Origin: Sulfobacillus thermosulfidooxidans DSM 9293
GTDB taxonomy: Bacteria > Bacillota > Sulfobacillia > Sulfobacillales > Sulfobacillaceae
Length of the DNA: 64,000 bases
Direction of reading: 5' to 3'
NCBI RefSeq assembly: GCF_900176145.1
Contig: NZ_FWWY01000001.1
Span: 2,245,595-2,309,594, forward strand
In this document: positions 43,893 through 49,093 of the stretch, piece after piece
Numbering within the stretch: position 1 is the stretch's first letter
Layout of the letters: each line of letters begins with the position of its first letter
Position numbers and translations under genes: made by a program
The notes under the pieces: generated by a model
What the model saw: only the letters and a program-made list of their open reading frames with translations
The model's database searches: none
Told to the model about the DNA's origin: nothing

Positions 43893-44687
43893 TTAAAAGA
43901 CCCCGGGCAGACGACGCTCAAGAAAATGGGCAATACTTTGATTGGTTAATTGGGGAACTTCAATATGAGGTAAGTGTCCAACATCATCAAACACGACGAG
44001 TTCTGCATCGGGTAATGCCTTTTCTAAGGCTTTGCCATAGGCTAAGGGAATAATACGATCTTCCCGTCCCCAAATTAGCAAGGTCGGCATTGTGATCTGG
44101 TTGAGATTTTGGTCTGGATCGGGCACAATGCCTTGAGAACCTAAATATTTTGCAAAGATTTGTCGCCCCCGGTTCAGTTCTTTGGCATCTTCTAGGGTAC
44201 GGTAGGGAGTGAACTGGCGATAACGCTGAGGATCATGAACCAACCCCGACATAAATTGATCAGGGGGCAGGGTTAAGGGGTTGATTATCGGCACATTGGG
44301 CAGAGTCACGCCAACACTGTCCAGGATAATTAAAGCGGATACCATGTGAGGATAATGTGCGGCAAACGATAGTGCCACGCGCCCTCCCATGGAATTACCT
44401 CCTAAGATACATTGGGAGATGTTAAGGATTTCGAACCAACCTTTTAACACGTGCGGAATATGCTCAACGGATGTGACATCATCAATCCATTCAGATTGTC
44501 CAAACCCGGGCATATCGGGGGCAATGACTCGGAACGAAGGAGAAAAATATTGGATCTGGTGCCAAAAGGCTTTGCCGGTGCCACCCCCACCATGCAAAAA
44601 CACGAGGGGATAACCTTGACCACTTTCAAACCAGCTAAACCCTTTACCACGCCAACGGCTCGTGTGGCGTATAATATCGGTGGTAAT
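43893..44687 (-). CDS. Alpha/beta hydrolase starting at a non-standard ATT codon
   Basis: The 264-residue protein is an alpha/beta hydrolase with oxyanion GxG in FLHGGGGTGKAFW, nucleophile Ser in LGGNSMGGRVALS (about residue 105), an Asp in LIWGREDRIIPL and His in GHLPHIEVP near the end. The first in-frame ATG/GTG/TTG is a GTG at 44603, inside the first core strand. Upstream, the same frame reads TDIIRHTSRWRGKGFSWFE and continues to an ATT at 44687, exactly eight bases after AGGAGG (44696-44701) with a stop codon just before. The first strand then includes QGYPLVFLHG. ATT initiation is therefore the best reading. Substrate unknown. Confidence 0.75.
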   Translation of the reverse strand: MTTDIIRHTSRWRGKGFSWFESGQGYPLVFLHGGGGTGKAFWHQIQYFSPSFRVIAPDMPGFGQSEWIDDVTSVEHIPHVLKGWFEILNISQCILGGNSMGGRVALSFAAHYPHMVSALIILDSVGVTLPNVPIINPLTLPPDQFMSGLVHDPQRYRQFTPYRTLEDAKELNRGRQIFAKYLGSQGIVPDPDQNLNQITMPTLLIWGREDRIIPLAYGKALEKALPDAELVVFDDVGHLPHIEVPQLTNQSIAHFLERRLPGVF

Positions 44688-44822
44688 TGTTGTCGCCTCC
44701 TAGTATAAGCTGTCGTTATTGTAAACTTGTCGCCGACCAAAGAGAAGGGAAGACTGTAGAAAAGAGCAGATATGGATATTATAGAGATGCGTAAATTTAG
44801 GCGTCGTGAACAAGGTGAAAAG

Positions 44823-45830
44823 ATGAAAGTGAAAGATGTGGGCGAAAGAGCGCTCATTTCGACGATCCACCGGTTGCAGGCTATCGTTCCCATGGGATAT
44901 TTAGGCATTGGGGATGATGCGGCCTATCTGCCCCCGTCTCCTGCGGGTTGGCTTATCAGCCAGGATATGCTGGTCGAAGGTGTTCACTTTCGCTTTGATT
45001 GGATCACTCCCGAACAACTCGGTGAAAAAGCGGTAGCCGTGAACATCAGTGACATCGCGGCGATGGGAGGCATTCCGAAGGCCATTTTAACGAGTATTGC
45101 GGTGCCTGGGAATTTTGATGTCGAGGTCATCGAAGCCTTATACCGTGGGATGGCTAAGGCGCTCGATCGTTATGGTGCCGTATTAGTGGGCGGCGATACG
45201 GTGTCGTCGCCAGATAAATTCACGTTAGATGTATCGGTTGTGGGCCATCCCGGAGCGAAAGGACCCGTGTTATTATCCGGAGCCAAACCCGGTGACCGGT
45301 TGTTTGTCACGGGGCGTCTGGGCGCATCCTATGCGGGCTATATGTTATTGTGTCACAATGTGAGTTGGCCAAGCACCTCAATTCAACATCGAAGTGTTTT
45401 GCAAGCTCACTTGGCGCCCGTAGCACGTGTGGAGGCTGGTCAGCAACTCGGGGCATTGGCTCATGCTATGACAGATATTTCTGACGGATTAGTCAATGAA
45501 CTCAAGGCCATGACGCGATTTGGGGGAATCGGCGCCAGAATTGAGGCGGAGCGGGTACCGATTGATCAGGCTACCCAAATGGTCGCCAAAGAATATGGCC
45601 AAGATGCGTTAGATTTTGCCTTGTATGGCGGAGAAGACTATGAATTGTTGGCCGCGGTTCCTCCCTCCCGTGCGCGTGAAGCAGAACTCTTGTGTTTACG
45701 TTGTGGGGTTCCCATTACGGAAATCGGAGTGGTGACCGATACACTCGGAATTCATGTCATGCGAGACGGAGAGGAGCTCGCCGTAGATGAACGAAAAGGA
45801 TTCCATCACTTCGCCCTGGATCAGGACTAG
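44823..45830 (+). CDS. thiL: Thiamine-monophosphate kinase
   Basis: ThiL phosphorylates thiamine monophosphate to the diphosphate cofactor. The 335-residue PurM-fold protein has the Mg/ATP-binding GIGDDAAYL and QDMLVEGVHF near the N-terminus, LGEKAVAVNISDIAAMGG, a substrate loop with GGDTVSSP, and DISDGLVNEL near residue 220 with GGEDYELLAAV. Start ATG 44823 is preceded by AAGGTG; an in-frame ATG 44772 has a poorer ribosome site. Its end overlaps the tsaE start by 44 bases. Confidence 0.95.
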   Translation: MKVKDVGERALISTIHRLQAIVPMGYLGIGDDAAYLPPSPAGWLISQDMLVEGVHFRFDWITPEQLGEKAVAVNISDIAAMGGIPKAILTSIAVPGNFDVEVIEALYRGMAKALDRYGAVLVGGDTVSSPDKFTLDVSVVGHPGAKGPVLLSGAKPGDRLFVTGRLGASYAGYMLLCHNVSWPSTSIQHRSVLQAHLAPVARVEAGQQLGALAHAMTDISDGLVNELKAMTRFGGIGARIEAERVPIDQATQMVAKEYGQDALDFALYGGEDYELLAAVPPSRAREAELLCLRCGVPITEIGVVTDTLGIHVMRDGEELAVDERKGFHHFALDQD

Positions 45831-46302
45831 TGACAATCTCGAGCAAACACAGAAACTGGCGAAGAGCCTTATCGAGTTGCTGCGGCCTTCTGGGGTGATG
45901 CTGTTTGCAGGGGATTTGGGAACCGGTAAGACCACGATGATTCAAGCCATGTTATGGCATCTAGGCTATAAGGGGTCGGTCAAATCCCCCACGTTTGACT
46001 TACTTCACCTCTATGAATTCTACCCCTTTCGTGTCTATCACGTCGATTTGTACCGGTTAAGTAGTCCCGACGAGCTTGCGGTATTAGATTTACCCGAGCC
46101 CGGGGAAGAGAATACTATGATCTTGGTCGAATGGGGCGAAATGTTGACAACATTGTATCCCGATTATTTTCAGCTAACGTGTGAGGCGTGTGGGGATACC
46201 TGTCGCCGGTTCACGCTCGAGGCCCACGGCGAAACCGTCCAACAACGCTATGCGACATGGCTAAGTCGCCATTCTATTTCAGAGAAGGAGATAAATTCCT
46301 AA
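45787..46302 (+). CDS. tsaE: tRNA threonylcarbamoyladenosine biosynthesis ATPase TsaE
   Basis: The 171-residue P-loop protein is needed for t6A tRNA modification with TsaB and TsaD. The Walker A motif FAGDLGTGKTTMIQAML is at about residues 40-56, the switch region VKSPTFDLLHLYEF follows, then VYHVDLYRLSSPDELAVLDL and VEWGEM near residue 116. It starts inside thiL, so the genes are translationally coupled. ATG 45787 has GAGGAGCTCGCC-like sequence upstream. Confidence 0.95.
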   Translation: MNEKDSITSPWIRTSDNLEQTQKLAKSLIELLRPSGVMLFAGDLGTGKTTMIQAMLWHLGYKGSVKSPTFDLLHLYEFYPFRVYHVDLYRLSSPDELAVLDLPEPGEENTMILVEWGEMLTTLYPDYFQLTCEACGDTCRRFTLEAHGETVQQRYATWLSRHSISEKEINS

Positions 46303-46305
46303 ATC

Positions 46306-46995
46306 ATGCGCGTGTTAGGCTTTGATGCATCGGGTCAAACTTTGTCCGTGGGCTACATTGAGGGCGATGCCGTTTTGGCCGATTTATATTGGCAACGGCC
46401 CAAAACAGCAGGCAGTCATTTAGTGGCGTGGATTGAGATGATTGTGAAAGAATTTGGACGACCTGATGGTATATCGGTGGGAATTGGCCCGGGATCATTT
46501 ACAGGGGTTCGCATTGCACTGAGTGCTGCTAAAGCCTTGGCTTATGCCTGGAATGTGCCAGTTGTCGGTATTTCGTCCTTACAAGCTTGGGCATATTCCA
46601 TTAAGGGATATCAAGGAAAAGTCTTTGTATCCAGTGAAAAAAGAGGGCCAGCATTTTATGCGGGATTATATTTTTTGGGCCACAACCCTTTTCCTGAGGT
46701 GATTATCCCGGACTGGGCTGTGAATCAATGTTTGCCGGATCTATTTCCGCTATCCGAACCGGTAGCCATCGTTGGTCCCGTTGCGGCCGATCGGTCATAT
46801 AGTTATCAGGTCAGTTCGCATCCCATATCCTTACAATGTCCGATATTAGGGAGTCGTGTGGCATTTCTTGGACAAAGCAGGTTACAATTAGGGCAGGTGG
46901 ACGATCCCATGACATTGGCTCCTTTATATATTCGCCCACCCGCGATATCGACGCCACGAGGGCGAATAGAGCCTGAGGGGAAAGGAAGACAGTAG
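46306..46995 (+). CDS. tsaB: t6A modification protein TsaB
   Basis: A 229-residue ASKHA-fold partner of TsaD. Recognisable parts are VLGFDASGQTLSVG at the N-terminus and the conserved GIGPGSFTGVRIALSAAKALAYAW near residue 60. It acts as a dimerising scaffold of TsaD with TsaE in making threonylcarbamoyladenosine-37 of ANN-decoding tRNAs. It follows tsaE by three bases and precedes rimI by two. Confidence 0.93.
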   Translation: MRVLGFDASGQTLSVGYIEGDAVLADLYWQRPKTAGSHLVAWIEMIVKEFGRPDGISVGIGPGSFTGVRIALSAAKALAYAWNVPVVGISSLQAWAYSIKGYQGKVFVSSEKRGPAFYAGLYFLGHNPFPEVIIPDWAVNQCLPDLFPLSEPVAIVGPVAADRSYSYQVSSHPISLQCPILGSRVAFLGQSRLQLGQVDDPMTLAPLYIRPPAISTPRGRIEPEGKGRQ

Positions 46996-46997
46996 GC

Positions 46998-47492
46998 ATG
47001 GCAATCAGTGATGATCGGACTGGTAACGAATCGTCTCAATCCTCCCCGGATATTGTGATCCGGGATATGTATATGGCAGACCTCGATGCGGTAATGGGCA
47101 TTGAAAGCCATTCATTTCCGACTCCATGGTCGCGCAATGCCTTTCAAACCGAACTTTTAGAAAATACTTTTGCAACCTATCTTGTTGTGGAATTTCACGG
47201 GAAAGTTGTGGCTTACGGGGGAATGTGGATTATCTTGGATGAAGCCCACGTCACCAATATTGCGGTTCACCCGGATTACCGCGGACATCATTTGGGAGAA
47301 GCCATTATGATGGGACTTATTGAACGGGCTAAACGTGCGGGCGTGGTACGGATGACTTTGGAAGTGCGGCGCAGCAATTTAGTGGCCCAAAATTTGTACA
47401 ACAAATTGGGATTTGTGCAGTTAGGCGTGCGCCGCGGTTATTATACGGATACGCGAGAAGATGCCTTTATCATGTGGAAGGATCCTCTATAA
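46998..47492 (+). CDS. rimI: Ribosomal protein bS18-alanine N-acetyltransferase
   Basis: A 164-residue GNAT acetyltransferase. The N-terminus carries RDMYMADLDAVMGIESHSFPTPWSRNAF, and the acetyl-CoA loop is VTNIAVHPDYRGHHLGEAIM near residue 88, with LEVRRSNLVAQNLYNKLGF near 118. RimI acetylates ribosomal protein S18 in E. coli; in Firmicutes the gene often sits between tsaB and tsaD as here. Twenty N-terminal residues are extra. Confidence 0.9.
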   Translation: MAISDDRTGNESSQSSPDIVIRDMYMADLDAVMGIESHSFPTPWSRNAFQTELLENTFATYLVVEFHGKVVAYGGMWIILDEAHVTNIAVHPDYRGHHLGEAIMMGLIERAKRAGVVRMTLEVRRSNLVAQNLYNKLGFVQLGVRRGYYTDTREDAFIMWKDPL

Positions 47493-47532: not shown

Positions 47533-48024
47533 CTAACTGACACGGGATTCGGGTTCGGATTTGTTGGCCGGATGGGGAGGGGATCCTTTTATTGGCCATC
47601 CGCCCCACCAGCTCGCAAATCCTCCAAGAAGACCATAAAATCCGGCTGCAAACAGCGCGGTAATCACCGCGCCAGAAATCATATGTAAGTGCAGCATTGT
47701 GATCACCGCTTGCGCTGGCACCCCGTGAAGTTGGCGGATTAAAGCCCTCTGTGCCTGCGGTAACCGAATTGTATATTGATAAACCAGGGAGCTGGCAAAC
47801 GCGGTGAAAGCTCCTAACAGTACACCTGGCCAAAATGGCCGGTGCCCGCGCTTTTTTATCTCCCGGCCAAAAATCACAAAAATTAGTATGCTAAACAGAA
47901 ACGAAAACACGTGGCTGAGCGTGAGATAGGGATAGGTTGCAGGGGACAAGGCCAATACTGAGGGCCCTGCTAAGACGAGTAATAATAAGGTGGTAGAGAT
48001 GATGACTAATCCAAACATAATCAT
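47533..48024 (-). CDS. DUF420/cytochrome-like membrane protein of unknown function
   Basis: A 163-residue protein with four predicted membrane segments (about residues 5-25, 38-58, 68-90 and 115-140). The segments contain single His residues (LSHVFSF, MLHLHMIS) of the sort that could bind haem, but no family is certain. It is placed on the opposite strand between rimI and tsaD. Start ATG 48024 follows AAGGAG with six-base spacing. An acidic tail ends in ESRVS. Confidence 0.55.
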   Translation of the reverse strand: MIMFGLVIISTTLLLLVLAGPSVLALSPATYPYLTLSHVFSFLFSILIFVIFGREIKKRGHRPFWPGVLLGAFTAFASSLVYQYTIRLPQAQRALIRQLHGVPAQAVITMLHLHMISGAVITALFAAGFYGLLGGFASWWGGWPIKGSPPHPANKSEPESRVS

Positions 48025-48109
48025 TATGCACTCCTTAGTCGGGTAACATATGATTAATATGGCGAATGATATGGGGATTTTATGCATTTAAGGAGTAGGA
48101 GGAAATCCA

Positions 48110-49093
48110 ACGAAAATTTTAGGGATCGAATCATCCTGTGATGAAACAGCTGCCGCCATTGTGGAGGACGGTCGGCATCTTATTGCGACGACATTATCCT
48201 CATCAGCTCAAATTCATGCGAAGTACGGCGGGGTCGTGCCTGAAGTCGCGGCGAGAGAACATGCCCTGGCCATTTTGCCAGTTGTTGATGCGGTCTTAAC
48301 CGAATCTTCGCTCACCCTTCAAGATCTCGATGCGATTGCGGTCACGCAAGGTCCAGGGTTATTGGGTGCCCTTTTGGTTGGCGTGACCTTTGCCAAAACC
48401 TTAGGCGCAGCCCTCAACATTCCTGTTATAGGGGTTCACCATCTTGAAGCCCATCTCTATGCTAATGCCTTGGTCGATGCCTTACATTTTCCTGCGTTGG
48501 CCCTGTTGGTTTCCGGTGGTCATACCTCTTTGCTTTTATGGCGAGATTATTTACAATGGGAGCTTCTTGGGGAAACTCGGGACGATGCAGCCGGGGAAGC
48601 GTTCGATAAAGGGGCTCGAATTCTTGGATTAGGTTATCCTGGTGGGCCTGAAATTGAACGCCTGGCCCGCCAGGCTGAAAAAAAGTCACTGCATTTACCC
48701 ATCGCCAATTTAGGAGACACGCTCGATTTTAGTTTTAGCGGGGTGAAAACGGCGACACAAGCGTTATGGAAAGATCATTCTGATGAGCCCGAAGAAGTCG
48801 CCTACGCGCTCCAACAAGCGGTCATTAAAGCGCTTGTCAAAAATGTCGAGAAGGCCCTTAATCGCTATCCGGTTGAGCATCTCTATGTGGCTGGTGGTGT
48901 TAGTGCTAATCAAGCATTGGCCGAGGCGTTAAGGCATCTTGGGCAAGTGCGAAACATACACATCCATATTCCTCCTACGGCATATTGTACCGATAATGCG
49001 GCAATGGTGGCGGCACTTGGATATTACCTGTGGCAAGCCGGAAAATCCATGGGACCTTTTGAAGGTCCCCATGCTGTCTTCCCATTGGTCTAG
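48110..49093 (+). CDS. tsaD: tRNA N6-threonylcarbamoyltransferase TsaD, ACG start
   Basis: The 327-residue essential transferase moves the threonylcarbamoyl group onto A37 of tRNA. The metal-binding His pairs are in GGVVPEVAAREHALAI and VHHLEAHLYANAL, and the ATPase fold has GQG-PGLLGALLVG and LVSGGHTSLLLW. The first ATG/GTG/TTG in frame is GTG 48161, which would delete the conserved LGIESSCDETAAA opening. The same frame reads on upstream to ACG AAA ATT (48110), seven bases after AGGAGG, giving TKILGIESSCDET, exactly the family's MKILGIE start. No in-frame ATG, GTG or TTG lies between the upstream TAA and this point, so ACG initiation is the best reading, unless there is a sequence error. Confidence 0.9.
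   Translation, partial: TKILGIESSCDETAAAIVEDGRHLIATTLSSSAQIHAKYGGVVPEVAAREHALAILPVVDAVLTESSLTLQDLDAIAVTQGPGLLGALLVGVTFAKTLGAALNIPVIGVHHLEAHLYANALVDALHFPALALLVSGGHTSLLLWRDYLQWELLGETRDDAAGEAFDKGARILGLGYPGGPEIERLARQAEKKSLHLPIANLGDTLDFSFSGVKTATQALWKDHSDEPEEVAYALQQAVIKALVKNVEKALNRYPVEHLYVAGGVSANQALAEALRHLGQVRNIHIHIPPTAYCTDNAAMVAALGYYLWQAGKSMGPFEGPHAVFPLV

Follow-up and report, generated by a model that had tools for sequence, protein, structure and literature searches.

The tsaD gene and its start site

The window, a stretch of 64,000 nucleotides from the 3.86-Mb genome of Sulfobacillus thermosulfidooxidans DSM 9293, carries tsaD on the forward strand (48110..49093), which encodes a tRNA adenosine(37) threonylcarbamoyltransferase of 327 residues followed by a stop codon. 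In other bacteria tsaD is essential; it is a tRNA-modification gene, whose product makes t6A. The open reading frame belongs to bacterial TsaD according to NCBIfam TIGR03723, with a score of 399.5 bits against a cut-off of 296.1 over positions 1-313 of the 314-position profile, and it also matches Pfam PF00814 and solved homologues. The genes tsaE (45787-46302), tsaB (46306-46995) and rimI (46977-47492) provide the context expected for bacterial TsaD. Between rimI and tsaD, a membrane-like protein gene lies on the opposite strand (47533-48087), divergent from tsaD, with a relative in the genus genome G004; a search of 47536-48039 gave no Pfam or NCBIfam match. A diverged TsaD-like paralogue, 31% identical and with a GTG start, sits upstream of a folD-like gene (L002, 1339-2439, forward strand), and similar second copies are present in most relatives. 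Given the score of the window gene against the TsaD model, this paralogue is unlikely to be the real TsaD.

Direct reading of the DNA bore out the start site described in the initial annotation at every coordinate. The Shine-Dalgarno (SD) sequence AGGAGG (48097..48102, forward strand) is followed by the 7-nt spacer AAATCCA and then by ACG (48110..48112, forward strand), where homologues have their Met; the codons after it read AAA ATT TTA GGG ATC GAA TCA TCC TGT GAT GAA ACA (TKILGIESSCDET). Residue 2 of the window protein aligns with residue 2 of the solved TsaD chains 3zet, 4ydu and 6nak, which places the ACG at their Met1. The frame is closed by an in-frame TAA (48089..48091, forward strand) seven codons upstream, and the six intervening codons, GGA GTA GGA GGA AAT CCA, include no ATG, GTG or TTG, as had also been claimed. 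Over the 22 nt preceding the ACG, the predicted pairing with the anti-SD amounts to -14.1 kcal/mol, a value reached by 0.75% of random 22-mers from the same genome (mean -5.0 kcal/mol). No convincing sigma-70 promoter for tsaD rose above the shuffle level.

The first in-frame ATG, GTG or TTG downstream is the GTG at 48161..48163 (forward strand), which the initial annotation rightly described as deleting a conserved region. It sits past the conserved N-terminal motif of TsaD, so that a start there would remove ILGIESSCDETAAAI; moreover, the predicted anti-SD pairing upstream of it is -2.2 kcal/mol, which corresponds to no SD, and the GTG is missing at this position in most relatives. It was therefore rejected as the tsaD start.

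Conservation of the start codon across Sulfobacillus

Comparison of the window genome with those of seven other Sulfobacillus species, whose TsaD proteins are 71-96% identical to that of the window, revealed ACG at the same column in all eight. Among these genomes, G005 (L004) agrees with a Sulfobacillus benefaciens contig (L032) in identity and in the start region. The synonymous sites of tsaD are saturated: when the window genome is compared with the others, fourfold-site identity is 0.24-0.31 for six of the seven. Amid this saturation, just one of the 85 invariant fourfold-degenerate columns retains a single codon across all eight genomes, and that column is codon 1; none of the eight other invariant Thr columns has kept its codon. 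Codon 1 thus behaves like a start codon, unlike an internal Thr codon. The DNA upstream of tsaD is unrelated between most of the eight genomes, which indicates that the ACG was not inherited within a conserved block. SD-like pairing precedes it in every genome, at -9.8 to -14.1 kcal/mol, being strong in most and weakest in G002, whereas single-sequence folds gave no evident shared RNA structure at the start.

These comparisons dispose of the main alternative raised by the initial annotation, a sequencing error or a recent strain-level change of ATG to ACG. Such an event would be in keeping with the single base that separates the two codons and with the ATG of sister genera, but it would have to account for the same ACG in eight separate assemblies, whose upstream DNA is unrelated and whose synonymous sites are saturated, and its likelihood is negligible. 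Judged from the aligned sequences, the presence of ACG in all eight species makes it a fixed evolutionary feature and leads us to discard both an error in the sequence and a mutation of recent date.

Outside the genus, the start is drawn from other codons. Sister genera have ATG, GTG or CTG at this position. The comparison of relatives proposed at the outset, in which ATG in sister genomes would have spoken against an ACG start, thus yielded ACG in the species of the genus and ATG in most genomes of sister genera; of the nearest genera, g11 has ATG or GTG and g3 has CTG. A maximum-likelihood tree of TsaD groups the genomes with ACG in a single clade (support 100/98), which requires one gain of ACG and no losses. 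In a set of 79 tsaD genes taken from diverse bacteria, ATG, GTG or TTG occurs within eight codons upstream or three codons downstream of the expected position in 75, and slightly further upstream in another three; the remaining one, without a canonical start, comes from a low-coverage metagenome assembly. This last sequence (L081, Parafilimonas) reads ACT ACT ATT near the tsaD N-terminus. In the two species of g3 (L012 and L013), a GTG three codons upstream of the CTG overlaps the SD. In another family of the same order, the tsaD of one genome (L023, G026) carries ATC in place of the Met codon, with no in-frame ATG, GTG or TTG upstream.

It was also considered whether translation starts elsewhere, by a 5' extension, by a frameshift from the overlapping ATG at 48082 or at the downstream ATT at 48116, leaving the ACG internal or untranslated. 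Four of the eight genomes do have a distant canonical in-frame codon, at -33 to -117 relative to the ACG, so that an extended form of TsaD is formally possible in these four, and the out-of-frame ATG at 48082 does overlap the tsaD start in the window. However, the peptides encoded by these extensions are unrelated, and the other four genomes (G000, G002, G003 and G004) have no canonical in-frame codon upstream; in G004 the sequence is TAG CCT ACG, which closes the frame two codons before the ACG. The overlapping ATG lies in DNA common only to the window and G003, the ATT at codon 3 is ATC or GTT in other genomes, and no canonical codon downstream of the ACG is common to the eight. An internal Thr codon, too, would be expected to vary at its third base, as do all eight other Thr columns. 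A start elsewhere is therefore very improbable. Altogether, conservation in the eight genomes, synonymous saturation and the lack of an alternative start in four of them lend strong support to the initial proposal of an ACG start for tsaD, and we put the probability that the whole genus uses this start at about 0.9.

Further non-canonical starts in Sulfobacillus

An alpha/beta hydrolase gene on the opposite strand, 3.4 kb from tsaD (43893..44687; PF00561 and PF12697), has an ATT start (44685..44687, reverse strand) in all eight genus genomes. AGGAGG-type SDs precede the ATT in these genomes (44696..44701, reverse strand, in the window), and seven of the eight have no upstream in-frame canonical codon; sister genera mostly have ATG within one or two codons. 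The hydrolase gene is divergent from the thiL-like, tsaE, tsaB and rimI genes. The DNA around its start is strongly conserved (44660-44740; TACAATAACG.CAG and GATATTATAC) and possibly represents overlapping divergent promoters; GATATTATAC, which reads TATAAT on the forward strand, may be a promoter. Since part of this region owes its conservation to other causes, the invariant ATT provides less clear-cut evidence than the invariant ACG of tsaD.

Non-canonical starts were further surveyed in G000 and G004, over 1.2 Mb of each genome and 306 orthologue pairs. In two cases, tsaD and the hydrolase, the conserved coding sequence reached further upstream than any canonical start, with no other ready explanation. 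An automatic census based on an SD plus a near-cognate codon proved too noisy. Inspection of the looser list of the survey brought up infC and fluC/crcB. The infC gene, for which a non-AUG start is known in other bacteria, starts with ATC or ATT in the genus and served as a positive control. For fluC/crcB, a CTG start is apparent in three genus genomes (L315 at G000:C1:2348197, L316 and G004); in the three genomes read, an SD is present and no canonical start precedes the conserved N-terminus. As the strict survey test has a power of only ~15%, more such genes, including some with ACG starts, may exist.

Probable initiation on ACG and its possible role

ACG is not normally regarded as a bacterial start codon, and the decoding machinery was inspected for features that might explain its use. 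Both initiator tRNA genes of the genome have the CAU anticodon and an ordinary GGG/CCC anticodon stem. Anticodons were read for part of the 49 tRNA genes, with the Met and Thr genes included, and no dedicated ACG-reading initiator was found among them; tRNA-Thr(CGU) has the acceptor end of an ordinary elongator. A special initiator tRNA is hence exceedingly unlikely. IF3 is present in the genus, and its alignment reveals no obvious genus-specific change, on which ground an altered IF3 was set aside as the cause of the ACG start. To our knowledge, C-to-U editing of mRNA has not been described in bacteria. Editing of ACG to AUG, a process of plant organelles, does occur in chloroplasts (PMC9845219), but in Sulfobacillus it would leave the ATT and CTG starts of the other genes unexplained, and there is hardly any chance that it operates at tsaD.

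With ordinary CAU initiators, initiation by a mismatched fMet-tRNA is the simplest mechanism and a likely one, and we consider it highly probable that ACG is used as the tsaD start in this way. The SD would position the 30S subunit on the ACG, and the ordinary fMet-tRNA would initiate there through two Watson-Crick pairs and a middle C-A mismatch, giving TsaD the usual N-terminus fMet-Lys-Ile-Leu-Gly. A counterpoint is that the initiator pairs poorly with a codon whose middle base is mismatched. Such initiation is expected to be weak and held down by IF3, on the model of infC and the GTC-initiated sigR of Streptomyces, and the ACG would then most likely set a low, IF3-responsive dose of TsaD. 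Since known non-canonical starts are inefficient and IF3-repressed, TsaD is by analogy probably low in dose and IF3-responsive; as the role of the ACG, we give IF3-limited dosage an even chance. A scarcity of TsaD through a weak start, as first suggested for this gene, fits the published cases of non-canonical starts. In summary, we infer actual initiation at the ACG, a low yield, dependence on IF3 and a benefit from the low dose.

These published cases share several features with tsaD, where no canonical in-frame alternative exists (strictly so in four of the eight genomes), conservation extends beyond saturation and the SD spacing is suitable. In Streptomyces, the GTC start of sigR is repressed by IF3 (PMC5472188). 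Like the tsaD ACG, it is a non-canonical start fixed genus-wide, with a strong SD and no canonical alternative, and was overlooked by annotation pipelines. The two differ in that GTC mismatches the third (and first) base and ACG the middle base, that sigR encodes a stress sigma factor and tsaD a housekeeping tRNA enzyme, and that IF3 control has been demonstrated for sigR, whereas for tsaD we infer it. The non-canonical start of infC is likewise inefficient and IF3-repressed (PMC5472188). Its ATT, ATC or ATA resembles the tsaD start as a conserved non-AUG codon in a translation-related gene; unlike tsaD, infC combines a third-base mismatch with direct self-control by IF3. In Staphylococcus aureus, cvfC1 (AUU) and ccpN (AUA), both with extended SDs, give about one tenth of the AUG yield in poor medium (PMC13009471). 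They also pair a conserved non-canonical start with an SD; however, their codons are AUU and AUA instead of ACG, and their use as starts was shown by ribosome profiling and reporters. The tsaD gene of Mycobacterium tuberculosis has its own promoter beside tsaE, tsaB and rimI, and its transcriptional regulation has been described (PMC5335608), but this gene starts with ATG.

The ACG might instead be a neutral relic that works adequately and has no regulatory role. The mostly strong SDs and the sufficiency of one ancestral change are consistent with such a relic, as are the additional non-canonical starts of the genus, a possible sign that selection on starts is relaxed. Drift at synonymous saturation, however, should have altered the codon in some lineages, because a single-base change to ATG restores a strong start, yet none of the eight has changed; IF3 and the initiator tRNA, moreover, appear ordinary. 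We regard a neutral relic as possible but rather unlikely.

The product of tsaD is not known to affect start selection in bacteria. In yeast, loss of t6A raises ACG initiation, from 98 to 169 genes (PMC4717488). As tsaD makes t6A, a link from the product to its own start is testable, with the reservation that the E. coli initiator tRNA is without t6A (PMC4717488). A more speculative scheme, which we consider improbable, would make the tsaD ACG a feedback sensor: lower t6A or IF3 fidelity, or an acid cytoplasm favoring a protonated A-C wobble, would raise mismatched initiation and restore TsaD, within a start-codon regulon shared with infC, the ATT hydrolase and fluC. Regulation of tsaD by IF3, t6A or cytoplasmic pH is put forward here as a set of hypotheses.

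Few conserved non-canonical starts have been described in bacteria, and in the literature consulted they are AUU, AUC, AUA or GUC. A reconstruction covering 61,358 ancestral AUG starts reported two changes to CUG and one to AUU but none to ACG (PMC5622118); the literature searched contained no paper on a bacterial ACG start or on start codons in Sulfobacillus. Conserved non-canonical starts as such are already known, and the new element is an ACG with a mismatch at the middle base. Annotation restricted to ATG, GTG and TTG will truncate proteins that begin in this way. If true, a genus-wide ACG in a gene that is essential elsewhere would mean that a middle-base mismatch can serve as a stable start codon, which bears on IF3 and SD strength as determinants of initiation.
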